Below are positions 2,776-24,356 of a DNA stretch of 28,821 bases, piece after piece. Under the pieces are notes generated by a model. That model was not told the origin of the DNA, searched no databases, and saw only the letters and a program-made list of their open reading frames with translations. Numbering within the stretch: position 1 is the first letter of the stretch; the number at the start of each line of letters is the position of its first letter. The stretch is taken from the IMG/VR virus record IMGVR_UViG_3300030419_003249, positions 1 through 28,821 of that record; one strand, 5' to 3'. The translations under genes and the position numbers were made by a program. The DNA comes from a virus.

Positions 2776-4268
2776 TTTAAGTTTATCCTTTTAATTCTAT
2801 AATTAAAATTTTGTTCCTTATAGATATTTAGTCGTTGGTGAAAATGTCTCAAGGTAAAATTGACCTTATTGTGAATGGAAGTGGAAAGGTCATCCGAAAT
2901 GTCGTAGATTTTAAGGCGTTGGCTTTGGCCTCCACGGCGCAAGCCACGCCCAATGGACTGAAGCACTCTGATTTTGCTTTTTGATGGGCTTGCGAACACG
3001 ATGTTATCAATATTCCGAATATTAATACCAGTACTGAACGTACCATAACTGGCAACGATGATTGAATCTTTTTCATTTTCTACAATCTCTCTGATTTGTT
3101 CTCTTGTGTCTGTATCGACACCACCGTAGACAAAAAATATTTTTTTGTCTTTATATTTATCTTTTATTAATTTATGTAATGGTTCCCCATGTTTTTCTAC
3201 GAACTGAAAAAGAACGAGAGTATTTCCACTGATATGACCTACAAGCTCCAATAAAAAAGTATTTCTTTCAGTCTTAGTGACAATGTACTCCAGTTCTTCA
3301 CGATAATCAAACTCCTTTATTATCTGTTTATCCTCATCAGGGTAATTTAAAACTATACAGTCAATTTTTAGCTCTGATAATGTTTTATTATCAATCAATT
3401 CTTTTGTTGTTACAACATACTTTGCTTTACCAAATAAACCTTCTAATACAAGTCTATGTGTCTGTGTACCATCTAAAGTTCCCGTCAAACCAAAACGATA
3501 TTTGCAAGTATCAAGTTTAGTCATAATACCTGTCAGAGATTTTGCCTTAAATAGGTGAGCCTCGTCACCAAACACCGCACCAAACTGTCTAAAATATGGT
3601 CTTGGCATTCTATGTATGGATTGCCAAGTTGATATGACTACATCTTTCTCGACTTTTCTATCGTGTCCTTGATATATTTTTTGACAATATGTCCCAGAAC
3701 TCCAACCATAATCTTCAAAGTCTTTATACATTTGTTCCACAAGATTTGTTGTTGGAACCAGTATTAAAGTTTTTAGTTCCATCATTTGATAATATCGAAC
3801 AAGACAATATATTATTAATGATTTACCGGAAGCAGTAGGAGAAATAAGAAGAGAACGATCTGTGGCAATAGCATGGGTGATGGCATCAATTTGATAATCT
3901 CGTACTTTAATTCGTTTTCCATTGAGCGTTGGTCTAAGACCTCGTATAAATCCTTGCACCACACTTCGGGCAACTTCTCTATCATTTCTGAGTCCGTCTT
4001 CCAATTCATAACTAACACCACGTTCTTTTAAATACTCTTCTATATATGGGAGAAGACCCATATAAATCTCACCTGTGACAATATTATACAAACGTATTTT
4101 ACCATCCCACATTTTATTTCGATATGCAGGCATGTATTTAAAACCGGGCACTTCAAATGTAAAGAAATCATTCAGTTCTGCTGCAGTCGATGGTTCAACA
4201 TTTTGAAGTGTTAGGTTGACCTCATTTTTCTTAGATATGAGCATTCTGAAAGGTTCCAACTTTTCCAT
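2772..4268 (-). CDS. uvsW: UvsW superfamily 2 DNA/RNA helicase
   Basis: A 498-aa helicase from the ATG at 4266-4268. A GTG two codons upstream is possible, but AAGGGG sits correctly for the ATG. Visible motifs are Walker A PTASGKS (about 144-150), a DEAH box GDEAHLF (about 230-236), GLTGTLDGT as motif III, and the C-terminal motif VI stretch QSIGRGLRR. The N-terminal about 110 residues match the small UvsW N-domain (PGFKYMPAYRNKMWDGKIRLY). T4 UvsW (587 aa) unwinds R-loops and branched DNA and drives the switch from origin-dependent to recombination-dependent replication. The start overlaps the end of the upstream oxygenase by 38 nt. Confidence 0.96.
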   Translation of the reverse strand: MEKLEPFRMLISKKNEVNLTLQNVEPSTAAELNDFFTFEVPGFKYMPAYRNKMWDGKIRLYNIVTGEIYMGLLPYIEEYLKERGVSYELEDGLRNDREVARSVVQGFIRGLRPTLNGKRIKVRDYQIDAITHAIATDRSLLISPTASGKSLIIYCLVRYYQMMELKTLILVPTTNLVEQMYKDFEDYGWSSGTYCQKIYQGHDRKVEKDVVISTWQSIHRMPRPYFRQFGAVFGDEAHLFKAKSLTGIMTKLDTCKYRFGLTGTLDGTQTHRLVLEGLFGKAKYVVTTKELIDNKTLSELKIDCIVLNYPDEDKQIIKEFDYREELEYIVTKTERNTFLLELVGHISGNTLVLFQFVEKHGEPLHKLIKDKYKDKKIFFVYGGVDTDTREQIREIVENEKDSIIVASYGTFSTGINIRNIDNIVFASPSKSKIRVLQSIGRGLRRGGQSQRLKIYDISDDLSTSIHNKVNFTLRHFHQRLNIYKEQNFNYRIKRINLK

Positions 4269-4827
4269 AATCACCCCTTAAAAGAATATTCCAAGAAACA
4301 CTTATTCTTTCAAATTGTGTCATGGGAACCCAATGTTGCAACCAAGATGGAAAAATTATACCTGTGCCAATATCAGGATTAAATTGTATCATACCAGAAT
4401 TATTCCAGTTAGGATTATTTTTAGGTTGAAATTGATTGGCTTGAGGTCTTGGATCAAAAAATTGAATTGGTGCGGCACCCTTTGCACTTTCAACATAATA
4501 AACACCAGACCATAAATTATTTGAATGTGTATGTGGAGGATGTGACACACCAACTTTAAGTAAGTTACCCCACATACCTGTCATTTCAATTTTTTTATAT
4601 TCAAATTCTAATTTTTTAAAAATGTCTGCCATCGTATTATGAACTGCTGTGGCAAGAGGTCTAAAGGTTGATAGTTTATAAATATCATCTTCGGTTTGGG
4701 TTCCTTTTTGAGCTCTAATATATGCTGCCATATTAAAATGTAAGTCATTCGCTAAATCGGGATGAAACTTATAAATCATCGTAGGAAATGCGGTATATTC
4801 TTTTATTTCAATTTTTACATCAGCCAT
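4231..4827 (-). CDS. 2OG-Fe(II) oxygenase-type protein (2OG-FeII_Oxy_5 family)
   Basis: A 198-aa protein from the ATG at 4825-4827, which has GTGGAG at about 9 nt. A GTG at 4842 is the alternative start. It matches the family common in marine phages: SHPPHTHSNNLWSGVYYVE at about residues 95-113 (H99 and H101 as metal-ligand candidates), FFDPRPQANQF, then GIIFPSWLQHWVPMTQFERI with H165 as distal ligand and R174 as likely 2-oxoglutarate contact. Members are predicted cytosolic hydroxylases of unknown substrate. It overlaps both neighbours (4815-5354 gene and uvsW), so it is part of a coupled run uvsY-oxygenase-oxygenase-uvsW. Confidence 0.82.
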   Translation of the reverse strand: MADVKIEIKEYTAFPTMIYKFHPDLANDLHFNMAAYIRAQKGTQTEDDIYKLSTFRPLATAVHNTMADIFKKLEFEYKKIEMTGMWGNLLKVGVSHPPHTHSNNLWSGVYYVESAKGAAPIQFFDPRPQANQFQPKNNPNWNNSGMIQFNPDIGTGIIFPSWLQHWVPMTQFERISVSWNILLRGDYGKVGTFQNAHI

Positions 4828-5354
4828 GATATAATACTCCACCTTTCACCTTTTGTTACTTTTTTAACCTCATGAGGAAACATAAAGTTCGATGGAAAAA
4901 CTATTGCTGAACCTTTTGATGGTTTATATTCTTTATCTGTAACAATAAATTCACCACCTTCATAATCATCATTTAAAAACAAGAGTACCGAGCATTGAGG
5001 ATAACCATATTGCTGACGATGAGAGTGGTGTATGTTGTCAACATGTGAGGACATAAAGCCGCCGACGCCATACCTATTAATACGAAAATTGGTATGATGT
5101 ATGCAACTAAACCTTTCATGTTCTTTTGCATAAATCTCGACAATTTTTAAAACTGTTTCTCTCATTAATGGATATGGTTTGTTTATATCTTGAACCCAAA
5201 CCTCATCCATTTTGACTCGTTCTTCACTATTAGAACTTACGCCGTTATTATTTTCATATTTAGAAGGAGCCCAATCCCAAGGATAATTAAATATCTCCTT
5301 GCATTGTTTATCATTCATAATATTTTCATAATATCCAATCCACTTTTCTAACAT
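4815..5354 (-). CDS. 2OG-Fe(II) oxygenase, prolyl-4-hydroxylase-like
   Basis: A 179-aa protein. I chose the ATG at 5352-5354 because it overlaps the uvsY stop (TGATG) and has a perfect GGAGG six bases upstream; a longer TTG start at 5384 would run into uvsY. It has a full double-stranded beta-helix signature: H104-x-D106 in FMSSHVDNIH, LLFLNDDYEGGEF (strand after the first ligands), H161 in FPHEVKKV and R171 in GERWSIISWL. These are the Fe(II) triad and the 2-oxoglutarate arginine of the P4H family. Family members hydroxylate proteins, nucleobases or small molecules; the substrate here is unknown. It forms a pair with the next oxygenase gene. Confidence 0.88.
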   Translation of the reverse strand: MLEKWIGYYENIMNDKQCKEIFNYPWDWAPSKYENNNGVSSNSEERVKMDEVWVQDINKPYPLMRETVLKIVEIYAKEHERFSCIHHTNFRINRYGVGGFMSSHVDNIHHSHRQQYGYPQCSVLLFLNDDYEGGEFIVTDKEYKPSKGSAIVFPSNFMFPHEVKKVTKGERWSIISWLM

Positions 5355-5788
5355 CAAAAACCTCCAGCAATAAACTTTTTCCAATCCTGAGCATTACGAA
5401 TATCCCATCCTCTATTATCTATAGACTTTATAACACCATCAACAAACTCTACTACGGTTTCATAATATGCTATCTTTTTTTCGACTTCTATTATTTCATC
5501 ATCAGAATTAATATACATCTGAAGATCATTCTTCAGAATTTTTAAATCAAAAGGTTTTGCAACATAAACTTTGGCGTCAGCCTTACCACCATAGTATTCC
5601 CACTTTTCACGATATAATCGTTTATGTTCAGCTTTACATTGAAACATCATAAGTTTATATTTGGATTTATAATCCAACCATTTTGGTTTGATGATTTGAT
5701 TTTTATAAGATTGTTGGTGTAAGTCTTCATCATCTACTATAATAAGGTCTTCTTTTGCTTCCGCCTGTAACTCACTTAACTTATCCAT
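5354..5788 (-). CDS. uvsY: UvsY recombination mediator
   Basis: A 144-aa protein close in size to T4 UvsY (137 aa). The segments KWLDYKSKYKLMM and EKWEYYGGKADAKVY correspond to the T4 segments around KWLNKHSS and DYYSGRGDGD, and the ending RGWDIRNAQDWKKFIAGG matches the T4 ending RGFAIKHIQDMRAFEAG. UvsY loads the UvsX recombinase onto gp32-coated single-stranded DNA. The ATG follows the stop of the upstream gene directly (TAAATG), with GGAG inside that gene's last codons. No uvsX gene is present in this window. Confidence 0.92.
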   Translation of the reverse strand: MDKLSELQAEAKEDLIIVDDEDLHQQSYKNQIIKPKWLDYKSKYKLMMFQCKAEHKRLYREKWEYYGGKADAKVYVAKPFDLKILKNDLQMYINSDDEIIEVEKKIAYYETVVEFVDGVIKSIDNRGWDIRNAQDWKKFIAGGF

Positions 5789-6220
5789 TTATTCTCCATC
5801 ATTTACATCAAAACTTTGATACCCGATTTTCGGTCTAGGGTTTCTTTTAACCCTGTCTGGTGCATTGTCTTTATCTCTATGCCTCGCAATAGATGTTGAA
5901 CCAATATCTAATTCTCGTTGTCCGTGTTTTTGTTCAAGATCAGACATATATTTTTTAGTTGCTGGGTTTGACATTGCCTTTTTATATAAAGCAGGAGCTT
6001 TTCGAGCCGCTGCACCCATCGCAGAATGCATACCTTGGCCAATTCCGGTGCCGACATCCTGAACCGTTTTTGTAGTTTGCTTTATAAGTTTAGCTTCTTT
6101 ATTCTTGTCTCCCTGTCCGGCCTTCCGCATAAGCGCAGCATCACGCACTTCTTGGCCAAGGCCGTTCTCATTGACAGAATTATTAGTAATACTATTAATA
6201 AATTCTTTAAAGTTTTTCAT
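5789..6220 (-). CDS. Unknown basic protein with capsid-targeting-like N-terminus
   Basis: A 143-aa protein I do not recognise. It begins MKNFKEFINSI, close to the MK-x3-EFI pattern of T4 internal-protein capsid-targeting sequences. Next come a region rich in Gly, Ala and Lys (GTGIGQGMHSAMGAAARKAP, about 58-77) and a basic C-terminal half containing RELDIG (about 102-107). The sequence VNE at about 16-18 resembles the L/I-x-E cleavage rule of the gp21 protease. It lies between a tail-tube-fold gene and uvsY. It shares the EFI start and the ELDIG motif with the 227-aa protein next to the portal. A virion-internal protein is an inference only. Confidence 0.5.
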   Translation of the reverse strand: MKNFKEFINSITNNSVNENGLGQEVRDAALMRKAGQGDKNKEAKLIKQTTKTVQDVGTGIGQGMHSAMGAAARKAPALYKKAMSNPATKKYMSDLEQKHGQRELDIGSTSIARHRDKDNAPDRVKRNPRPKIGYQSFDVNDGE

Positions 6221-6239
6221 TTAATTATCCTTTGTTGTA

Positions 6240-6851
6240 TCAACATGTATCATCTATTGTACTAAATTCATATAATTGGTATGAAAATGTAGCACTAGCA
6301 GTTATATATTGAACATCAGTAGCACCTTGGTCATATTGCAAAGCACTAAGAGAAACAGGATAACAATCTTGAAAATCTACTTCAATTATAGGATTATTTT
6401 TGTTAGATAAAATAATCAAATATGCATCTGAATAAAATGCGGTATCGGGAGTAGCTTCACTGATTACATCTACAGGAGGAGCATCTCTTACTACTGATGA
6501 AACTTGAGTTGATTTATTTGATCTGAAATCTCTAAACTGTTTTCTACTTTTGGGAAATCCAATACCTGTCATCCAATCATGAAGTGTTCTATAATTTTCT
6601 AGAAACTCATCAACAATAAAACTAATTGTTAATTGTTCATATGTAAGTTTATCACCAATAATTGGTATATCCTTAAATGGAGTACCCATACTTGTTTCTC
6701 CCAAAGTAATGCCGGGAATATTACAAGCTGTCGTAAAAAATTCAACCTTTGGCAGTTGATTTATGCCAAAACGAAATTGTGTTGGACTTGAATAATCCAA
6801 CTTATCTGGTTGTCTTTCTAATGCTTTTGCTGCTGTTGCTCTTACTACCAT
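6240..6851 (-). CDS. Tail-tube-fold protein following gp23 (gp3- or gp54-type role)
   Basis: A 203-aa protein with the layout of the gp19 tail-tube family: FRFGINQLPKVEFF near residues 27-40, an NIPG turn, the strand pair DIPIIGDKLTYEQLTISFIVD, the helix NYRTLHDWM and a C-terminal strand ATFSYQLYEF. The same order appears in this phage's own gp19 (NQFRV, LPG, PFRGRQIFI, ELWMNGI, WRYQHFE). In cyanophages the gene between gp23 and uvsY is, as I recall, annotated gp3 (tail completion and sheath stabiliser); a baseplate tube initiator (gp54-like) is the other option. A perfect late promoter lies immediately upstream, leaving almost no leader, and no Shine-Dalgarno is present. Confidence 0.68.
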   Translation of the reverse strand: MVVRATAAKALERQPDKLDYSSPTQFRFGINQLPKVEFFTTACNIPGITLGETSMGTPFKDIPIIGDKLTYEQLTISFIVDEFLENYRTLHDWMTGIGFPKSRKQFRDFRSNKSTQVSSVVRDAPPVDVISEATPDTAFYSDAYLIILSNKNNPIIEVDFQDCYPVSLSALQYDQGATDVQYITASATFSYQLYEFSTIDDTC

Positions 6852-16286: not shown

Positions 16287-16586
16287 ATGAATGAACACTA
16301 TGAAAAATACAAAGAAACAATTAAAAAGGTAGCTCGTAGAAACTATCGCAAAAGGATTCTTTTACTTAACGACTTTTTAGCAGACAAATCTTGTATTCAT
16401 TGTGGGGAAAGTGAAACTATATGCCTCAAATTTCATCCCCACGATTCAGAAATTCGTAAATTAACAAAACGTGTTGGTACTAATAACGAAAGTCGTAAAG
16501 AAATATTTCACTTAATTGAAAAATCAAAAATTCTCTGTTCTAATTGTTGGATAAAAGTTGATAACGACCTTATAGAGTTTATTTAG
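16287..16586 (+). CDS. Small HNH-like zinc-finger protein, degenerate
   Basis: A 99-aa protein and the only gene read on the plus strand. A basic helical N-terminus is followed by C36-x2-C39 (CIHCG), LKFHPHDSE at 48-55 and CSNC (84-87). This is the layout of small phage HNH proteins in which LDFHHRD is followed by CANCHRK-x-H. Here the HH pair is HPH, the His after the last Cys is W88, and the final His is missing (IKVDND), so the zinc knuckle is kept but nuclease activity is doubtful. It lies between gp17 and gp18, convergent with gp17 (4 nt between stops) and divergent from gp18. It may be a decaying homing-type insertion or a repurposed zinc protein. Confidence 0.75.
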   Translation: MNEHYEKYKETIKKVARRNYRKRILLLNDFLADKSCIHCGESETICLKFHPHDSEIRKLTKRVGTNNESRKEIFHLIEKSKILCSNCWIKVDNDLIEFI

Positions 16587-16590
16587 ATTT

Positions 16591-18237
16591 TTACCAATCT
16601 GTGGTATAATCTCTAACTACAGGAGTCCATCTAGTACCAAACTCATCTACACTTTCACCATAATTTTCATCTTCAAGACCATTAATAATAAAACCAAATG
16701 GAGCCATATCTTGTTCCAGTGCGTCTTGTTGTTCTTTCATCATTGTTTTTCTAATATCATTATCTGTTAATTCTTTAAAGTATGTCTGATCTGTAGCCCA
16801 TCCAAATAAAAACATACATGCGACTAAATCATCATTACATCCATCATCTGCGGCATATGATGCACCTTTTACAATAAATGTGGATAATTCATTAACGCAA
16901 TCATAATCTTCTATAATAAGTTTACTATCTTCAATTAATTGTTTTAAATTTGAACATCCTACTTTTTTAACTGCCTTTGTAGTTCTTACCCCCAACTGAG
17001 CTCGCCCACCAGAAAATCCTGCTCCAAGTATTTGTCCGGCTCTACCACGCATAGATGCCATAACTAGATTATCATACTCTAAATCAAACTGTAAAGTATT
17101 TGCAACTTGTTCTCCAATATCATTTACTTCAACCATAACAAAAGCTTGATTATATGCTCTTGCAACTTCATATATTTTAGTAGGAAATAAAAGAGGTTTG
17201 ATCTCATTATCTCTAAACTTAGCAACAATTTTATACGGGATTTCAGTAACATCAAAAACAATAAATGCAGAATAATCATTAGCAGTGCCTCTTGATACAT
17301 CTGCTGTTATCATATATGTTCTCTCCTCAATTGGTCTTTCGTAAACATCTAATTTAGAATGAGATTGTATTGGAGTTTTATATGTTAAAGTTTTTAATTT
17401 TATCGGACTAATTAAAGTGTCAATAGACCCCAAAAACTCACATTCAAATTCTGCATTGAATTGTGATTCAGAGGTATTTTTAATGGTTTCTTCTTTCCAT
17501 GCTGCGTCACGGCCAGGAACTTCACTCCAATGAACTTCAACAGGCGTATATAAATTTCTTTTTTCTTGTGCATCTACCCACAACCTATAAAACATATTCA
17601 TTCCATGAGGAGTTGATACAATAATAACTTTTGTACTTTGACCAGAAGTAATTGTTGGATACACAGAAGCAAAGAATTGTTCTGCAACATTTGATGGCAC
17701 AAAAGCAAACTCATCGAGAAATATTACGTTATATGAACCTCCTCGAATTGCACTTGATGATGTAGCAGCTGCTATAATTTTACTACCATTCTCTAACTCT
17801 ATGTTACCTTTGTTCCAAGCTATAATACCTTGTTGCATCCATTTTGGGAGGTTTTCATATGCAAGTTGCAATCTTCCTAATATATCTCTTGCAGTGGATG
17901 ATTTATTCGCAAGAACAGCAATATTTACATTTTGATTGAACAGTGCAAAATGTAAAAGATAACTAATGATAGTAGTTGATTTACCAGATTGCCGAGGTAA
18001 CTTAAAAATACTAAATCGGTTATCGTGCATGGTATTAACCATACCCTTTTGAAAATCATATAAATGAAAAGGAACTAATCCTTCATCTAGTGAAACAATC
18101 TGAACATAATTTTCGATGAAATATAGAGGGTCTTGAGCACACTTATGATACTCTCGCACATTTTCTTCAGTAAACTCTACGACAGTATTTGTCTTTTTTA
18201 AATTAGGATTACCAAGATATTGATTTTTGTCTGTCAT
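16591..18237 (-). CDS. gp17: gp17 large terminase (ATPase-nuclease)
   Basis: A 548-aa packaging motor from the ATG at 18235-18237. An in-frame TTG at 18255 would add six residues; neither has a clear Shine-Dalgarno, so the start is uncertain. ATPase motifs are Walker A LPRQSGKST (about 80-88), Walker B VIFLDEF (about 171-177) and coupling motif VIIVSTPHG. The RNase H-like nuclease half shows ITADVSRGTANDYSAFIVFD (catalytic Asp), NDIGEQVAN and the acidic cluster YAADDGCNDDLVAC. T4 gp17 is 610 aa. It is separated from its usual neighbour gp16 by the 4.9-kb accessory cassette. Confidence 0.97.
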   Translation of the reverse strand: MTDKNQYLGNPNLKKTNTVVEFTEENVREYHKCAQDPLYFIENYVQIVSLDEGLVPFHLYDFQKGMVNTMHDNRFSIFKLPRQSGKSTTIISYLLHFALFNQNVNIAVLANKSSTARDILGRLQLAYENLPKWMQQGIIAWNKGNIELENGSKIIAAATSSSAIRGGSYNVIFLDEFAFVPSNVAEQFFASVYPTITSGQSTKVIIVSTPHGMNMFYRLWVDAQEKRNLYTPVEVHWSEVPGRDAAWKEETIKNTSESQFNAEFECEFLGSIDTLISPIKLKTLTYKTPIQSHSKLDVYERPIEERTYMITADVSRGTANDYSAFIVFDVTEIPYKIVAKFRDNEIKPLLFPTKIYEVARAYNQAFVMVEVNDIGEQVANTLQFDLEYDNLVMASMRGRAGQILGAGFSGGRAQLGVRTTKAVKKVGCSNLKQLIEDSKLIIEDYDCVNELSTFIVKGASYAADDGCNDDLVACMFLFGWATDQTYFKELTDNDIRKTMMKEQQDALEQDMAPFGFIINGLEDENYGESVDEFGTRWTPVVRDYTTDW

Positions 18238-18240
18238 ACT

Positions 18241-18280
18241 ATTATTTAGTTTCAAACTAATATTATTAATTATTTAGTTT
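18241..18280. repeat. 12-bp direct repeat at the cassette-gp17 junction
   Basis: ATTATTTAGTTT occurs at 18241-18252 and again at 18269-18280, 28 bp apart. On the coding strand both copies encode K-L-N-N: one as the last residues of the cassette's final gene (IKLNN-stop), the other just upstream of the gp17 ATG in the same frame. It looks like a duplication or recombination scar at the edge of the accessory block, though in such AT-rich DNA chance is not excluded. Confidence 0.6.
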
Positions 18281-19375
18281 TATTGAATTTAATATTTCAT
18301 TTGGTATTTCATCTTTATTATACCAATATCTACCATCTTCAAGAACAAGTTTTAATTTATCATTTCCTTGTTTAGTTCGTATATGTGGATATGCATTAAC
18401 ATTATTTAATGGAACTAATGATTTTATCTTTTCTTTATTGTCCCTATAATCAGCATCTTTAGTAAATTTGTATATGAAATCTTTTAATTCATATTTGTAA
18501 CTCAGCCATGTTCCTTTGTGTTTTTTATCTTTATTCATGATAGACCAAACTTGTAAATCTTTCCCACTTGCAAAATCATTTTGTGATTTAACATTCGATG
18601 AATTTAAATAATTTGTTGGGTAACAATATACTAACCAATGCCACTTCAATGAAAAATTTAACCACCAATATAAATCATATACGGTTTCAATTTCATATGG
18701 AGAACCTTTCACATGTTCATGTAAAAATTCCATGACATGATTTCTTTTTTCTATCCGCATATTAATAGATAAATCTTTAGAGGCTCTATTATCTCCAGAG
18801 ACATTCCAAATAACATCCCAATCATCAATAGAAGTCCAATGATCATTAACTGCTTCTGGTCTACGTTGTGTAACAGAACTACCAAACAAACAGTCAACAT
18901 TGTTTGCATGAACAAACATAGTGGCATCATTATCAAAACATCTAAACAAATCATATTCACTAACTTGATCAAAAGTGATTACATCATCCCATTTACACAT
19001 TTTGTCATATAACCAAGGGTACTCTTCGATGGCATGTTTAGTAAATCGTATTATTAACTTTTGGTTTTGTGTTTTCGTTTCTAGAAGACTAAACAGAGCA
19101 ACAGTACTATCCATACCGCCGCTCCAAAATAAAGTAATAGGTTTGGTCATAGACTTTTTCCAGAGTTCCGCACCACGATTTATACAAGCATCATAAAATG
19201 ATATTGATGTTCTCTCGTTTGGTATTTTATCATACCCAATGTTTAGTATATTATTCTTTCCAGACCTATCGACATATACGGGACTTCTAATAAGTTTGCT
19301 GGCAAGTCTTAGCCCCTCACTATAATGTTTTAAAGTGTTAGGGTTATAATACATAACTTTAACAGTGTTGTTCAT
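18266..19375 (-). CDS. PP-loop ATP pyrophosphatase, asparagine synthetase-like (copy C)
   Basis: A 369-aa protein with the PP-loop LFWSGGMDSTVALFSLLE at about 82-99, characteristic of N-type ATP pyrophosphatases; the SGG-x-DS core is that of asparagine synthetase C-domains. Later conserved-looking segments are TMFVHANNVDCLFGSSV, WNVSGDNRASKDL and VYDLYWWLNFSLKWHW. Such enzymes adenylate a carboxylate or carbonyl and let a nitrogen or sulfur nucleophile attack. It has no N-terminal glutaminase domain and no QueC-type CxxC cluster. It is much diverged from copies A and B. The ATG overlaps the end of copy B by 17 nt, with GGTG as a weak ribosome binding site. Confidence 0.8.
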   Translation of the reverse strand: MNNTVKVMYYNPNTLKHYSEGLRLASKLIRSPVYVDRSGKNNILNIGYDKIPNERTSISFYDACINRGAELWKKSMTKPITLFWSGGMDSTVALFSLLETKTQNQKLIIRFTKHAIEEYPWLYDKMCKWDDVITFDQVSEYDLFRCFDNDATMFVHANNVDCLFGSSVTQRRPEAVNDHWTSIDDWDVIWNVSGDNRASKDLSINMRIEKRNHVMEFLHEHVKGSPYEIETVYDLYWWLNFSLKWHWLVYCYPTNYLNSSNVKSQNDFASGKDLQVWSIMNKDKKHKGTWLSYKYELKDFIYKFTKDADYRDNKEKIKSLVPLNNVNAYPHIRTKQGNDKLKLVLEDGRYWYNKDEIPNEILNSIKLNN

Positions 19376-20366
19376 AATTCACCAAATCTTTTTTTGTTAA
19401 AGGTCTACCATCAGAAAATTTAATTTCTGCAAATTTATGTTCAGATTTTTTTTGAAAATCCCAGAAATCTCTCATATATTTATATCCTACAAGTTCCTTT
19501 GAATGATAATGCCAAGCCGACCAATCTATAGTTAAAAATTTTCCCAGTATTTCTGTCATCTCTGGATAGCACTGAAGATATATCATCCATTTATCCAAAT
19601 ATTTTTCTAGCAAAGTCATTCCATCTCTGTTAAATTTTGAATTTGTTGGCGAGGTTGACTCATACTTGTCTGCTTCTTCAAATGGACTTTGGTCTATGTT
19701 AGGCGCAAATAATCTATATGGAGTTATAAATGATGAAAAAATTTTATTATCCCAAGTGGATAGATTGACTTGGTTGTTTGGTAAGTCCCATAATGAATTT
19801 ATAGTAGATATCTTAAAAGTATCATAGGAATAATTGAATCCAAACCGATAGTCTCTTGGAAAATTAGAACTTCTTATGACATGACCATCTTGATCACTTG
19901 CCCAAAGAGTTTGAAAAATATCAGTAATTGCAGCATAACCACTTAAACAATAATCATAATAAAATTGCTGTGCTTCTAACCATCTTTCATTTACATTAAA
20001 TTCATAAATTCTAGGTTCAAATCCTAACTTTCTAGCAAATGACGTGGCTCTTTTTCTATCCATTGTTAAAGGTATACCATCGGCAGTAAAAACACCTTGA
20101 ACTATTTGGATAGTATCTGACTTTAATTTTCCTTCACGAACTAAATCTCTGATACAACATAAGACAAATGAACTATCAGTGCCACCGCTATAAGCTAAAG
20201 TTACATTTGAATAAGTATCTGCAATTTCTAAAAGAACTCTTTTTGCTTCAGATTTAACCACATGTACATCATCATTTATCCAGAGGGGATAATTAAGTGT
20301 TATAGAAAAATCTTTATTAGGATTAGAATATGGATGCACTATCGTGAATAATTTTTTTCTGACCAT
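19359..20366 (-). CDS. PP-loop ATP pyrophosphatase (copy B)
   Basis: A 335-aa paralogue of the gene at 22166-23140. The PP-loop is AYSGGTDSSFVLCCIRDL at about 58-75, with KRVLLEIADTY just before it. Shared downstream blocks are IQIVQGVF, FSSFITPYRL, WMIYLQCYPEMTEILGKF and the C-terminal DLVNYE. Residues 1-55 form a short N-terminal domain unlike the Ntn glutaminase of AsnB, so the ammonia source is unclear. The likely reaction is substrate adenylation followed by ligation; the substrate is unknown. The ATG lies within the end of oxygenase 3, with AGGTG upstream. Confidence 0.82.
   Translation of the reverse strand: MVRKKLFTIVHPYSNPNKDFSITLNYPLWINDDVHVVKSEAKRVLLEIADTYSNVTLAYSGGTDSSFVLCCIRDLVREGKLKSDTIQIVQGVFTADGIPLTMDRKRATSFARKLGFEPRIYEFNVNERWLEAQQFYYDYCLSGYAAITDIFQTLWASDQDGHVIRSSNFPRDYRFGFNYSYDTFKISTINSLWDLPNNQVNLSTWDNKIFSSFITPYRLFAPNIDQSPFEEADKYESTSPTNSKFNRDGMTLLEKYLDKWMIYLQCYPEMTEILGKFLTIDWSAWHYHSKELVGYKYMRDFWDFQKKSEHKFAEIKFSDGRPLTKKDLVNYEQHC
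19477..19484 (-). promoter_or_regulatory. Possible internal late promoter before PP-loop C and gp17
   Basis: A perfect minus-strand TATAAATA lies inside copy B, about 100 nt before the copy C start. It could give separate late expression of copy C and gp17. Being inside coding sequence of an AT-rich genome, it may also be chance. Confidence 0.3.
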
Positions 20367-20941
20367 TTTCCCGTCACCTTTAACACCATTAACAATTCTC
20401 TAGCGTCTTCGTAATCTATTTCTTTACTTATCGTAAAAAAACCACTATATCTAGGTTCATATGAATAGTTAATTACTCCATGTCTTCTGGAAGTATTTAA
20501 TAAATATATTCCACCTGGCTCATATTGAGGTTCCTCATATAATGCACAGTTGTTTGCTATAACCCCCCAAGGGTTCTCCATATCTCTAATCGCTGTTCGA
20601 TCTAAAAACTTTTTCTTTTGTTCCTCGTCCATATAAACATCAGGTTCTAATATAAAGGTATGTGACTCCATATCATGAAGACACAAGTTTAAACCACAGT
20701 TTCTTACAGCATCTATATGTTCTCGAAAGATAGAACGAGGTTCCATTTTCATGATACCCATATAATCACAGAATCCACTCAATATCTTGAGAATAGGTTC
20801 TTCAAGTAAAAATGCAGGCATCTTTATAAATTGTCGTCTTGAAGACGGTCGTTTACTATCTCCAGGCCATTCTGCATTCATAGCATATGTGAATATATCC
20901 TGATACGTCTCACAATCGTATTGTAGTCTATACCAGTTCAC
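20339..20941 (-). CDS. 2OG-Fe(II) oxygenase-like protein 3 (paralogue of protein 2)
   Basis: A 200-aa protein starting at GTG (20939-20941), which overlaps the stop of the preceding gene (GTGA). Aligned by eye with its neighbour at 20938-21483 it shares WY near the start, EWP, KRPSS, SIFREHID, CLHD, NTS-x2-H and EPRYSGFFT. The candidate iron triad is H75-x-D77 and H154, with R164 as 2-oxoglutarate ligand. The last residues depart from protein 2 and instead read VLKVTGKW, as at the end of oxygenase 1, suggesting a chimeric 3' end. The substrate is unknown. The family could also be a cupin-like hydroxylase that does not use 2OG. Confidence 0.68.
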   Translation of the reverse strand: MNWYRLQYDCETYQDIFTYAMNAEWPGDSKRPSSRRQFIKMPAFLLEEPILKILSGFCDYMGIMKMEPRSIFREHIDAVRNCGLNLCLHDMESHTFILEPDVYMDEEQKKKFLDRTAIRDMENPWGVIANNCALYEEPQYEPGGIYLLNTSRRHGVINYSYEPRYSGFFTISKEIDYEDARELLMVLKVTGKWSEKNYSR

Positions 20942-21483
20942 AACAACTCTTTCATGTCTTTATATGCTATGTCATATTTCAAAGTAAAAAAACCACTATA
21001 TCTTGGTTGTTGAGAAAAATTAATCACTGCATGTTTCATGGAGGTGTTAACCAAATAAAAATCTCCGGGCTCGTTGTCTACTTTATCAAATGTCACACCA
21101 ATATTTTCAATGAATTGCCATTGTGATGAAGGGTCATTTTTATTTTCAAATTTATTTTCAAACATTATATCGGGATGTAAAATAATTGTATGAAAATCAC
21201 CATCATGCAAACATAGATTGAACCCACATTTTCTACTGGTATCTATATGCTCTCTAAAAATAGAGTTACCCTCTATTCTCATCAATGACATTTCAGAACA
21301 TATATTTTGTAAATTTTTTGAAAGAGAATCTTCTAAAAGATGCACTGGAAAATTGACGTATCTAATAGTGCTTGATGGTCTTTTTTTCCATTCTGGCCAT
21401 TCTGTTTGTTTAGCGTATGACAAGATTTCATCGTAATTTGTACATTTATGTTTTGTTTTATACCATGTGTCATAAGTTTTCAT
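20938..21483 (-). CDS. 2OG-Fe(II) oxygenase-like protein 2
   Basis: A 181-aa protein from the ATG at 21481-21483, chosen because it overlaps the previous stop (ATGA) and aligns with the start of paralogue 3; an upstream ATG at 21564 would overlap oxygenase 1 by 85 nt. The HxD motif is H79-x-D81 in SIFREHID, followed by FNLCLHDGDFH; the distal His is H151 in NTSMKHAVIN and the arginine is R161 in QQPRYSGFF. This is the Asp/Asn-hydroxylase-like beta-helix pattern. It ends at KELL, about 15 residues before the end of paralogue 3. The ribosome binding site is weak. Confidence 0.68.
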   Translation of the reverse strand: MKTYDTWYKTKHKCTNYDEILSYAKQTEWPEWKKRPSSTIRYVNFPVHLLEDSLSKNLQNICSEMSLMRIEGNSIFREHIDTSRKCGFNLCLHDGDFHTIILHPDIMFENKFENKNDPSSQWQFIENIGVTFDKVDNEPGDFYLVNTSMKHAVINFSQQPRYSGFFTLKYDIAYKDMKELL

Positions 21484-22169
21484 AGGTTCCATTTGCCGGT
21501 AACCTTCAACATGTATCTTGGTTTCTGTCCAGCATTTGCAGTCGAGTGGGGCATGTGTCTCCAATCATACCAAAGAGTGTCACCCGCTTTCCATTGATGC
21601 CAATTGAAATTGCCAACTTGGAAAAAATGACCCCACTTCCAATCCTCTAATGCAATAAAAAACCTATGCGTATCATGATCTAACTCAAGTTCATCATGAC
21701 TTTGTACTAATCTACTATCGCCCGGTAATGAACAATTGCAAATGGTATCCATATGAGTATGGAAACTTTCTCCTGGCTGTTGTGCGATAATAGTAGCAGC
21801 AAAATCTTTGATACCAGTTGACTCTACCATTTTCCATATTTTAGGGTGAGTCTCTGGAGTTGTGTAAGCTTGTTTACTAACATAGGTAATATAATTACGA
21901 CCTAATTCCAAACACTCTTGTATGACACCTCTAACAAGAAGTTCGTTAACATCAATGAATTTTTTTGATTCAGATATGTAGAGAAATTCAGTGTTTTCTA
22001 GTTCATCTTGCCAATCACATTCAAACTGCATAAAATTATGTTTTATGTAACCTTTGTCAAAGTCTTCGTAACTTTTTGTAGTTGGGTCAAAATGCCATTC
22101 ACTTGCTCGTCTTCTATGATTCCAATTCGCATTTTCACTTTCATACCAATATTCATTATCTATCGTCAT
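21480..22169 (-). CDS. Aspartyl/asparaginyl hydroxylase-like oxygenase 1
   Basis: A 229-aa protein. The C-terminal half carries PGESFHTHMD (H137, H139, D141), an H-x-D iron-binding motif, then FFIALEDWKWGHFF, KAGDTLWYDWRHMPHSTAN with distal H208, and PRYMLKVTG with R218. This resembles the Asp/Asn beta-hydroxylase branch of 2-oxoglutarate oxygenases. The N-terminal about 120 residues (WNHRRRASEWHFDP at the start) have no motif I can place. The ATG overlaps the stop of PP-loop copy A (ATGA) and AAGGAA lies upstream, so ligase and hydroxylase are probably translated together. Confidence 0.75.
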   Translation of the reverse strand: MTIDNEYWYESENANWNHRRRASEWHFDPTTKSYEDFDKGYIKHNFMQFECDWQDELENTEFLYISESKKFIDVNELLVRGVIQECLELGRNYITYVSKQAYTTPETHPKIWKMVESTGIKDFAATIIAQQPGESFHTHMDTICNCSLPGDSRLVQSHDELELDHDTHRFFIALEDWKWGHFFQVGNFNWHQWKAGDTLWYDWRHMPHSTANAGQKPRYMLKVTGKWNL

Positions 22170-23140
22170 AATTTATATTCCTTATAATTTAATAAATCTT
22201 TTTCTGTGAATATTTTTCCATTTGGAAATTTGAGAGGATTCCAAGATTTTTCTAGAGTTTCATTATCATGAACCACACGGAGAAAGTGTATTTCCTTATT
22301 AAAACATTTTTGTTTCCACAATTTCCAATCTATTGTTACAAATTTACCAAAAATTTCCATCATCTTAGGATAACATTGTAAATATATCATCCACAAATAT
22401 AAATAATGTTCCACATGATTAATTGCTTTATATGGTATATGGCCTTCAGATATATTATATGATTGTAGATTAATATTTCTCCTACCTATTCTAAACGGTG
22501 TTATATAAGAAGAATAATTATCACTATCCCATGTATGAAAATTAATCTGATTATCAAATATACCACATATTCTCAAAATGGTTGCAGATGGTGCAATCCA
22601 TCTTCCATCGCAACCAAGTTCTAGTCCTTTAAATAACCTCGGGGCATGACATGATATCACAACACCATCTTGCTCTCTAGAAAACAAAATTTGATAACTT
22701 GCAACTACAGTTGTATTTCCAAATAATTTATATTTTAAAATAAAATCTTCAAGGTCTTTCCATTTTTCATTTATATCATATTTGTAAATACGAGGATTAA
22801 AACCTAATGAATTTGCAAACTTTGTTGCTCTCTCATGATCTGGAGTTAATATAACATTTCCACCAGTAAAAATACCCTGCACTATCTCAATCGTATCTTC
22901 AGTTATTTTTCTTTCATCTATTAAATCACGAATGCAACACAGAACAAAACTACTATCCATACCACCACTGTATCCTAATATTAGTTTTGGGTATGTATCA
23001 ACCATTTCCAAAAGAACTCGTTTGCCGTGTTCTTTCGCCGCAAAAATATTTTCCGATATGTATAATGGGGAATTAATAATAATGTCAAAAGATTCCCCAA
23101 AATCTTTTGGAAGACTTTTAATATTAAATATACTTTTCAT
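22166..23140 (-). CDS. PP-loop ATP pyrophosphatase (copy A), first gene of cassette
   Basis: A 324-aa protein with PP-loop LGYSGGMDSSFVLCCIRDL at about 55-73, preceded by KRVLLEMVDTYPK. It shares IEIVQGIF, YSSYITPFR, WMIYLQCYPKMMEIFGKF and a C-terminal KDLLNY with copy B, so the two are clear paralogues. An asparagine-synthetase-type adenylation chemistry is expected from the family; the acceptor is unknown. It starts 9 nt after the gp16 stop without a convincing Shine-Dalgarno, so it probably depends on transcription and perhaps translation from the gp13-gp16 run. Confidence 0.82.
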   Translation of the reverse strand: MKSIFNIKSLPKDFGESFDIIINSPLYISENIFAAKEHGKRVLLEMVDTYPKLILGYSGGMDSSFVLCCIRDLIDERKITEDTIEIVQGIFTGGNVILTPDHERATKFANSLGFNPRIYKYDINEKWKDLEDFILKYKLFGNTTVVASYQILFSREQDGVVISCHAPRLFKGLELGCDGRWIAPSATILRICGIFDNQINFHTWDSDNYSSYITPFRIGRRNINLQSYNISEGHIPYKAINHVEHYLYLWMIYLQCYPKMMEIFGKFVTIDWKLWKQKCFNKEIHFLRVVHDNETLEKSWNPLKFPNGKIFTEKDLLNYKEYKL

Positions 23141-23149
23141 AATTAAAAA

Positions 23150-23563
23150 CTATTTTTCTTTCAACATCTTCTGCAATTCAGCAGTACTCCCTACAAATAA
23201 AGCGTTAGTCACACTCTTCGGTGCATTATCTGGCACCTCTTTCAGTTTTTTCATTTTTTCTTGTAAGTCTCCAAGTTTTTCAGTAACCTCTGCAACTTGC
23301 TTAATAAGATTTCCAGCAACCTCATATGCTCTTGGGTGGTCTGATTCTTTTGCGAGCTCCAATATTCCTTCGACGGCATCAGTTCCCCTTTCAACTAAGT
23401 TATAAAAGTTTTGTCTCTGATATGCATAATCTCTCTCTATGTCATTTTCATCACCATAATCTCTTCCAGATATTGGTGGTTTAGGAGAGACGACCTCTGC
23501 AAGAGAGGAGTGTTCAGACATATTATCAATTACACCTAGTGCTTTATCAATAGAATTATTCAT
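23150..23563 (-). CDS. gp16: gp16 small terminase subunit
   Basis: A 137-aa protein from the ATG at 23561-23563, which overlaps the gp15 stop and has AGGTG upstream; a GTG at 23569 is the alternative. The central stretch DYAYQRQNFYNLVERGTDAV, then ILELAKESDHPRAYEVAGNL and a coiled coil (EVTEKLGDLQEKMKKLKE), is typical of T4-like small terminases (T4 gp16 is 164 aa), which form rings and regulate the gp17 ATPase and genome recognition. In T4 it adjoins gp17; here six genes intervene. Confidence 0.9.
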   Translation of the reverse strand: MNNSIDKALGVIDNMSEHSSLAEVVSPKPPISGRDYGDENDIERDYAYQRQNFYNLVERGTDAVEGILELAKESDHPRAYEVAGNLIKQVAEVTEKLGDLQEKMKKLKEVPDNAPKSVTNALFVGSTAELQKMLKEK

Positions 23564-24356
23564 CGTCACCTGTCACGGGGTTAAGTTCTTTAGCATCTTG
23601 AAAGAATGATGTGGTTTCATTAAATCCGAAATCATCATCAGCATCTGCACTGAATGGGTCTGGCTTAACAGTGTATCTTTGTTCTCTTGTTGGTGATTTA
23701 TCTGGCATATCTGTATATTGATCCACAATTGCAGTTTTGATGACACCAGTAGATGTAACCGGGCCATATAGATAAAATTTAGCAGTAAAGTCTAATGTAT
23801 AGATAAGAGCTCTACGTTGATCAAAATCGCCCTGATAATTATCTTCATAACTAATACCATTTAAGATAATTGGAACATCTCTTTTGATACCCATATCAGC
23901 CATATCATTAATCGTGATTGTATAATCTGGTTGAAAATATGGTAGAATTTGTTCGACAATTTGTAGAGCATCATCAGATTGTTTTGCCATAACATATAAC
24001 TGTATTGAAAGATTATATGGAACAGGCATAAATTGAGTATCTAATTCTCTACTTGTAGCACCTTTTACTTTTTTAAATTTTTGAACACGATTTAATTTAC
24101 GAGTAGGATCATACGACAAATTTTGAATTTCAAACCCAATACGAGGAAGAGTAACTGCAACTTTGCTTCCTAAATCTGGATCAGCTCTAAGACGAACAAG
24201 AAACTTTTCCCTAGGCCCATATGCAAGAGGAACTTTCATAGATTGAGCAACATTACCAGAACTATCTTTGCGAACTAGTTGTATATTATTAAATGTAGTA
24301 CCAAACCCTACGATTACTTTGCGTATAGTTTCATGGTAAAATTGTTGACCTAACAT
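23556..24356 (-). CDS. gp15: gp15 tail completion/sheath terminator protein
   Basis: A 266-aa protein (T4 gp15 is 272 aa). Diagnostic stretches are FYHETIRKVIVGFGTTFNNI (about 5-24), KVPLAYGPREKFLVRL (about 41-56), LPRIGFEIQ, VPYNLSIQLYVMAKQSDDAL and QIVEQILPYFQPDYTITIND, ending with DFTAKFYLYGPV. gp15 caps the tail and joins it to the neck (gp13/gp14). The C-terminal 50 residues are acidic and variable. A GGGGGA in the last codons of gp14 serves as ribosome binding site. Confidence 0.94.
   Translation of the reverse strand: MLGQQFYHETIRKVIVGFGTTFNNIQLVRKDSSGNVAQSMKVPLAYGPREKFLVRLRADPDLGSKVAVTLPRIGFEIQNLSYDPTRKLNRVQKFKKVKGATSRELDTQFMPVPYNLSIQLYVMAKQSDDALQIVEQILPYFQPDYTITINDMADMGIKRDVPIILNGISYEDNYQGDFDQRRALIYTLDFTAKFYLYGPVTSTGVIKTAIVDQYTDMPDKSPTREQRYTVKPDPFSADADDDFGFNETTSFFQDAKELNPVTGDDE

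Follow-up and report, generated by a model that had tools for sequence, protein, structure and literature searches.

A 28,821-base IMG/VR fragment of a marine T4-like myovirus (IMGVR_UViG_3300030419_003249, positions 1 to 28,821; hereafter the window) carries six genes between its two terminase genes, gp16 and gp17. On balance, these genes appear to form a mobile auxiliary-metabolism island that occupies a known hot-spot and is built on carboxylate-activating ligases, with an imported organic acid as the probable substrate. Three of the genes encode PP-loop proteins (PPA, PPB and PPC) and three encode putative Fe(II)/2-oxoglutarate (2OG) oxygenases (OXa, OXb and OXc). A first-pass annotation, made from the letters alone, had joined all six in a single ligase–oxygenase pathway. 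Overall that interpretation is partly supported, and the partner that it could not see is a cupin, which accompanies the PPC family in bacteria as well as in phages.

Putative AsnB-like ligases and a cupin partner of the PPC family

PPA (22166–23140, 324 aa), PPB (19359–20366, 335 aa) and PPC (18266–19375, 369 aa), all on the (−) strand, carry the PP-loop signature at exactly the residues first proposed (SGGMDS at 58–63, SGGTDS at 60–65 and SGGMDS at 85–90, respectively). PPA is a paralogue of PPB (40% identity), and SGGxDS is invariant across the PPA/PPB and PPC families as well as a third family, PPD. A structure model of PPB (AlphaFold, 35-sequence alignment; predicted local distance difference test (pLDDT) 83, predicted template modelling score 0.86) has a PP-loop synthetase fold and was best matched by VIA-align to beta-lactam synthetase (Z 12.8, root-mean-square deviation 5.0, 259 residues aligned to 1mbz), then to human asparagine synthetase (Z 12.3), E. 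coli AsnB (12.0) and carbapenam synthetase (11.6). Because the deviation is large, this match assigns a fold class rather than a function, and the model places PPB in the class of AsnB-type synthetase domains, as the initial AsnB-like designation implied. LarE (Z 10.6 over 164 residues) and NAD synthetase (NadE, about 9.7) share the PP-loop core, but their structural match is shorter than that of AsnB-type enzymes and none of the proteins received a LarE or NadE family assignment.

The resemblance to asparagine, beta-lactam and carbapenam synthetases (PF00733) thus comprises the PPB fold (Z 11.5–12.8), the SGGxDS motif and, in the PPC family, a second AsnB-like motif (GExGDxxFG), kept there as GExGDQxFGS and reduced in the window PPC to its D, F and G. 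Unlike those enzymes, PPA and PPB have no such second motif, and none of the 324–369 aa island proteins has an N-terminal Cys-nucleophile glutaminase domain, as they start next to the PP-loop domain and have no residue-2 Cys. Pfam matches also fall below the curated cut-offs (PF00733 E 0.27 for PPB, the outcome of a search that the first-pass annotation had proposed, and E 0.019 for a PPD protein of locus L013; NAD_synthase 1e-3 for PPA). Other sequence-database matches are likewise sub-threshold and cover the P-loop stretch only, and sequence profiles found no usable match among PDB chains (the PPB profile reached argininosuccinate synthase at E 0.43, and that of PPD reached GMP synthase at 0.004 over the P-loop alone).

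Named phages yielded few relatives. No match to PPB, PPC, OXa, OXc or PPD was returned by tblastn against 50,697 phage records, PPC-family queries against the same records retrieved only Pseudomonas phage Cygsa01, and hidden Markov models of the PPA/B and PPD alignments matched none of eight named or single-cell marine phage genomes. The closest PPA relatives found lie outside the gp16–gp17 island (L037, 60%; L033, 55%). In Cygsa01 (PP179332.1, 8022–10171; L129), two PPC-family genes separated by a 90-aa open reading frame (ORF) stand right after tail-fibre genes; their annotation as “tRNA-specific 2-thiouridylase MnmA” looks wrong. No link was found among the small proteins adjoining PP-loop genes in marine phages, Cygsa01 and the distant phage locus L125.

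Relatives of PPC are common in bacteria, where we examined 40 loci in Bacteroidota, Gammaproteobacteria, Verrucomicrobiota, Planctomycetes and the Candidate Phyla Radiation (CPR), most at 30–37% identity. Twenty bacterial genomes holding PPC contained no PPD relative, and only P-loop matches to PPA/B. A cupin gene lies 0–457 bp away on the same strand in 24/40 of the bacterial loci, and phage cupins, ~50% identical to the bacterial ones, usually adjoin the PP-loop gene directly. Among 87 dereplicated phage islands, a cupin occurs in 11 of the 28 with PP-loop genes and in none of the 59 without (p=7.7e-7, an indicative value, as the queries behind the two groups were partly different). The cupin is therefore a partner of the PPC family in cells and phages alike. 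Since the bacterial relatives of this ligase sit in a conserved, unstudied cupin operon, the phage probably borrows a small-molecule pathway from bacteria.

Importers are further recurrent neighbors of PPC genes. An SSF symporter was found in L066–L070 and L072 (six marine loci), in L125–L128 and in L151, a bacterial locus whose copy is 45% identical to that of phages; TctA was found in L090, L094 and L095, and a TRAP DctM + TAXI pair with a PPC gene just after gp17 in L253. This is a pattern across transporter classes, not a statistic. In L256, a PPC relative has nearby genes (5215–6349) for a KdsA-like DAHP_synth_1 protein and for a sugar-isomerase-like cupin.

In the mechanism that we propose, the PP-loop proteins would activate a carboxylate with ATP, forming an acyl-adenylate and pyrophosphate with Mg bound at SGGxDS, and would then couple the activated carboxylate to ammonia or an amine. 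Because these proteins lack a glutaminase domain, they would need free ammonia or another nucleophile. The carboxylate and solute importers (SSF, TctA, TRAP-DctM) that recur beside PPC genes suggest that the substrate is probably not phage DNA but a small organic acid or amino acid that the cell imports. In place of the cupin of bacteria and other phages, the HxD…H(…R) proteins would probably act as hydroxylases on these metabolites or on related ones, which is the least supported step.

Exchangeable cargo between gp16 and gp17

The island is bounded upstream by the terminase small subunit gene gp16 (23150–23569, (−); PHROG match 6e-46) and downstream by the large subunit gene gp17 (16591–18255, (−); family matches), and its six ORFs (18266–23140, all (−)) are transcribed in the order PPA, OXa, OXb, OXc, PPB, PPC, as initially described. 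Start–stop overlaps were likewise confirmed, with 4 nt each for PPA/OXa, OXa/OXb (from the ATG start of OXb) and OXb/OXc, 28 nt for OXc/PPB and 17 nt for PPB/PPC. These overlaps, and the ~10-nt gaps to gp16 and gp17, leave no room for the precursor-peptide gene of a ribosomally synthesized and post-translationally modified peptide cluster. Relative to homologs, the ratio of non-synonymous to synonymous divergence (dN/dS) of the six genes is 0.02–0.35, which indicates that they are under purifying selection as proteins.

The window phage is Kyanoviridae-like; by its large terminase (TerL), the closest named phage is Methylophilales phage Melnitz (69% identity), and identity to the pelagiphage and cyanophage proteins is 64–66%. 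To place its island in context, we surveyed 64 loci holding both terminase genes, mostly contig fragments: the window itself, eight records from named or single-cell phages, and 55 IMG/VR loci sampled by gp17 (from the best 80 of 600 candidates). Across them, the gp16–gp17 gap ranged from −22 to 6382 bp, with the genes abutting in only 12/64, so that the first-pass expectation of terminase genes normally lying close together in marine relatives did not hold. At 4895 bp, the window gap is the second largest.

Cargo differs widely between these loci: P-SSM2 and S-T4 carry large fibre-like proteins, Melnitz an F5/8C-domain protein, and HTVC008M a 2OG oxygenase with a tryptophan halogenase; the last resembles the window island in placing tailoring-type enzymes in the same gap but has no PP-loop genes. 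An 88.8-kb contig (L253) has an A-type Fe-S assembly protein (PF01521, 7173–7478) as its sole gene between gp16 and gp17. PP-loop genes were present in 3/55 complete islands of the gp17-sampled set, and represent a minority cargo that is enriched in the clade of the window.

The site itself is not unusual. The gp16–gp17 interval is one of four published hot-spots, credited to Millard et al. (2009) by Sullivan et al. (2010; PMC3037559), and a 2010 review (PMC2984593) counts 4–14 inserted genes in the g15–g18 region. The window island shares with this cyanomyovirus hyperplastic region its position, its variable insertions and its exchanged cargo. The cargo described in two papers (PMC3037559, PMC2984593) comprises structural genes, plastoquinol oxidase and genes of carbon metabolism, whereas that of the window consists of AsnB-like PP-loop arrays and putative oxygenases, in a phage whose closest named relative by TerL infects Methylophilales and not cyanobacteria.

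We found no second locus with the exact gene set of the window. Neighboring complete islands combine one to four copies from the three PP-loop families, to which oxygenases, radical-SAM proteins, a cupin or transporters may be added, as in L013 (gp16, radical-SAM, OXc, three PPB, PPD, gp17), L024 (OXa, two PPB, PPD), L052–L054 (PPB, PPD), L058 (PPD and a cupin) and L061 (PPC, cupin). PP-loop genes recur as arrays, mostly PPA/B then PPD then PPC, and other genome positions hold them too, next to gp44/gp45/gp62 (L037) or to phoH and lysozyme (L033, L049); one 88.8-kb contig carries them at no fewer than three places.

Synonymous divergence (dS) was 0.36–0.76 for island genes vs. 0.93–2.67 for gp13–gp17 in the same phage pairs, the exception being PPB vs. 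L024 (1.0). As island dS is below that of the flanks, movement of the cargo between phages is more recent than the divergence of the core, and most island genes have thus been exchanged between phages independently of the flanking core genes. The OXa protein is 99% identical in L024–L026, although the structural proteins of those phages are 82–89% identical, and its DNA is 92% identical to that of L024 (dS 0.54 vs. 0.93–1.76 in the flanks). Plain recent transfer was rejected as the explanation for this identity: dS supports exchange, yet much of the protein identity reflects strong constraint. Across the comparisons of L024, L025 and L026 with the window, OXa stands out as an unusually constrained cargo gene (dN 0.004, dS 0.54).

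Several further features recur around these islands. Two adjacent ORFs encode a radical-SAM protein and, separately, its SPASM domain; they lie upstream of gp16 in L050 (2893–3841), L061 and L067–L070, and downstream of gp16 in L079 and L080, with a fused form after gp16 in L012/L013. B12-binding radical-SAM proteins adjoin PP-loop genes as island cargo in L034 (3701–5230), L060 and L089. A ~100-aa family (MAWKRVQVRTIP...) with no family match found is encoded in L016 (2017–2340), L030 (3731–4051), L055 (10394–10699) and L253 (5205–5516), and was counted in 4/28 PP-loop islands vs. 0/59 others (p=0.009). Just past gp17 of the window, on the opposite strand, a 99-aa gene with Cys/His pairs (16287–16586, (+)) is kept in almost every relative, Melnitz (63%) among them, again with no family match found. 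The window yielded no tRNA or Rfam matches.

Putative oxygenases and their possible link to PP-loop genes

OXa (21480–22169, (−), 229 aa), OXb (20938–21483, (−), 181 aa) and OXc (20339–20941, (−), 200 aa, GTG start) are putative Fe(II)/2OG oxygenases on the basis of conserved residues. OXb, a paralogue of OXc (44%), probably begins with the ATG at position 21483, as the upstream TTG listed as its start (21564) seems too early. The H-x-D signature noted at first was recovered in all three (OXa H139/D141, as HMD 139–141; OXb H79/D81, counted from that ATG; OXc H75/D77, as HID 75–77), while the downstream H…R part fared unevenly: H75, D77, H154 and R164 (OXc numbering) are invariant in 10 sequences of the OXb/OXc family, whereas an OXa relative in L125 keeps H139, D141 and H208 but not the Arg. 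None of the three proteins matched a Pfam family, HHalign gave weak links between the OX families and recognized 2OG families, and the OXc structure model (pLDDT 47) was too poor for a meaningful fold search, so that of the structural expectations the one for PPB was upheld. The window also encodes two mutually overlapping, Pfam-recognized 2OG-Fe(II) oxygenases far from the island (4231–4842 and 4815–5384, (−); PF13759 2e-19 and PF13640 5e-19).

Across the 87 dereplicated islands, OXa occurs in 2/28 with PP-loop genes vs. 0/59 without, as does OXb/c (p=0.1 each), and other 2OG oxygenases occur in 3/28 vs. 8/59 (p=1). Oxygenases are thus not statistically tied to PP-loops. PP-loop islands with no oxygenase are common (L052–L054, L058, L061, and also L015, whose contig is cut after three PP-loops), and OXc relatives stand beside the baseplate genes gp5/gp6 with no PP-loops in L020–L023. 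Given these counts and a gene set seen nowhere else, one joint pathway of all six genes is not supported. The co-occurrence survey is nonetheless mixed, as L125, from a distant phage otherwise unlike that of the window, has an OXa relative (28–31%) 0.9 kb from a PP-loop gene, and a PPC relative, the OXa relative and an SSF symporter within 4.3 kb. In every contig that extends far enough, OXa has PP-loop genes nearby. Some PP-loop/oxygenase coupling is therefore possible, with L125 as its best sign. Pairings of an AsnB-like ligase with a double-stranded beta-helix enzyme are known from CarA/CarC and BLS/CAS (ligase and 2OG oxygenase), and a cupin with an AsnB-like protein from albofungin Afn9/Afn14 (PMC11705231), both analogies only.

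Competing explanations and implications

Several observations weigh against an imported-acid pathway. The AsnB-like fold model is that of PPB alone, PPC and PPD being linked to it through the motif and weak profile links (HHalign PPB–PPC 49%, over 22 columns only). Each transporter class falls to 1/28 after dereplication (p=0.32), and the window island, as read from a 28.8-kb piece, has neither cupin nor transporter. The two PPC relatives that follow tail-fibre genes in Cygsa01 fit modification of a protein equally well.

Other explanations, which may overlap with the one we favor, were also considered. PP-loops and oxygenases could be separate insertions that share a hot-spot and have their own jobs, a reading that we find rather doubtful but the least so of these alternatives. 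It would account for an island composition matched nowhere, for the occurrence of each class without the other (e.g., OXc relatives by gp5/gp6), for generic 2OG oxygenases not being enriched with PP-loops, for the remote position of the two recognized oxygenases of the window, and for the sheer number of such enzymes in cyanophages (24 in S-SCSM1; PMC9602691); the restriction of OXa to the vicinity of PP-loop genes, distant L125 included, and the recurrence of ordered PP-loop arrays argue against it. It is unlikely that the enzymes instead modify a virion protein, such as a tail fibre, by amidation or ligation and hydroxylation: despite fibre-like proteins at the same site (P-SSM2, S-T4, and the F5/8C protein of Melnitz), the Cygsa01 arrangement and the baseplate neighbors of OXc relatives, the bacterial PPC family lies in a cupin operon with no phage structural genes, transporters recur as neighbors, and PP-loop islands usually have no fibre gene.

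Modification of host-surface or phage glycans, with the PP-loop protein acting like the sugar amidotransferase WbpG, seems quite improbable, as neither the window island nor most PP-loop islands hold glycan genes and no NCBIfam sugar-amidotransferase match was obtained, even if PPC relatives do lie near the KdsA-like gene and sugar-isomerase-like cupin of L256 and near sulfotransferase-like and glycosyltransferase-like ORFs in L254, and a CDP-alcohol phosphatidyltransferase is present in the L050 island. A nucleic-acid modification of the QueC, TilS, MnmA or DndC type is very improbable. Weak matches to PHROG “QueC-like” (PPC, 3e-5) and TilS, and the MnmA label of the Cygsa01 relatives, point toward it, but the QueC and TilS matches span the P-loop only, the best PPB structure matches are amide- and beta-lactam-forming synthetases, with such enzymes not among the top structures listed, and the bacterial operons carry a cupin rather than nucleoside-pathway genes.

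Returning to an auxiliary-metabolism island that acts on an imported acid, it is tempting to speculate more broadly, if quite tentatively, that phages share with bacteria (Bacteroidota, Gammaproteobacteria, Verrucomicrobiota, Planctomycetes and CPR) an undescribed system in which a glutaminase-less AsnB-like ligase would work with a carboxylate importer and a cupin of its own, the latter replaced in some phages by a putative 2OG oxygenase, to make a new amide- or N–N-containing metabolite, and which marine T4-like phages would expand into tandem arrays and shuffle via gp16–gp17 to alter host metabolism. The hot-spot was already known, but its cargo here is absent as a family from Pfam, NCBIfam and PHROGs, and nothing similar was found in the open literature searched. 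More generally, the survey illustrates how gene pairs common to cells and phages can reveal the partner of an orphan phage enzyme. If the small-molecule reading is true, the phage data would direct attention to a so far unstudied operon of several bacterial phyla (cupin, PP-loop ligase and sometimes symporter), and would give a set of marine phage “hypothetical” genes a testable role.

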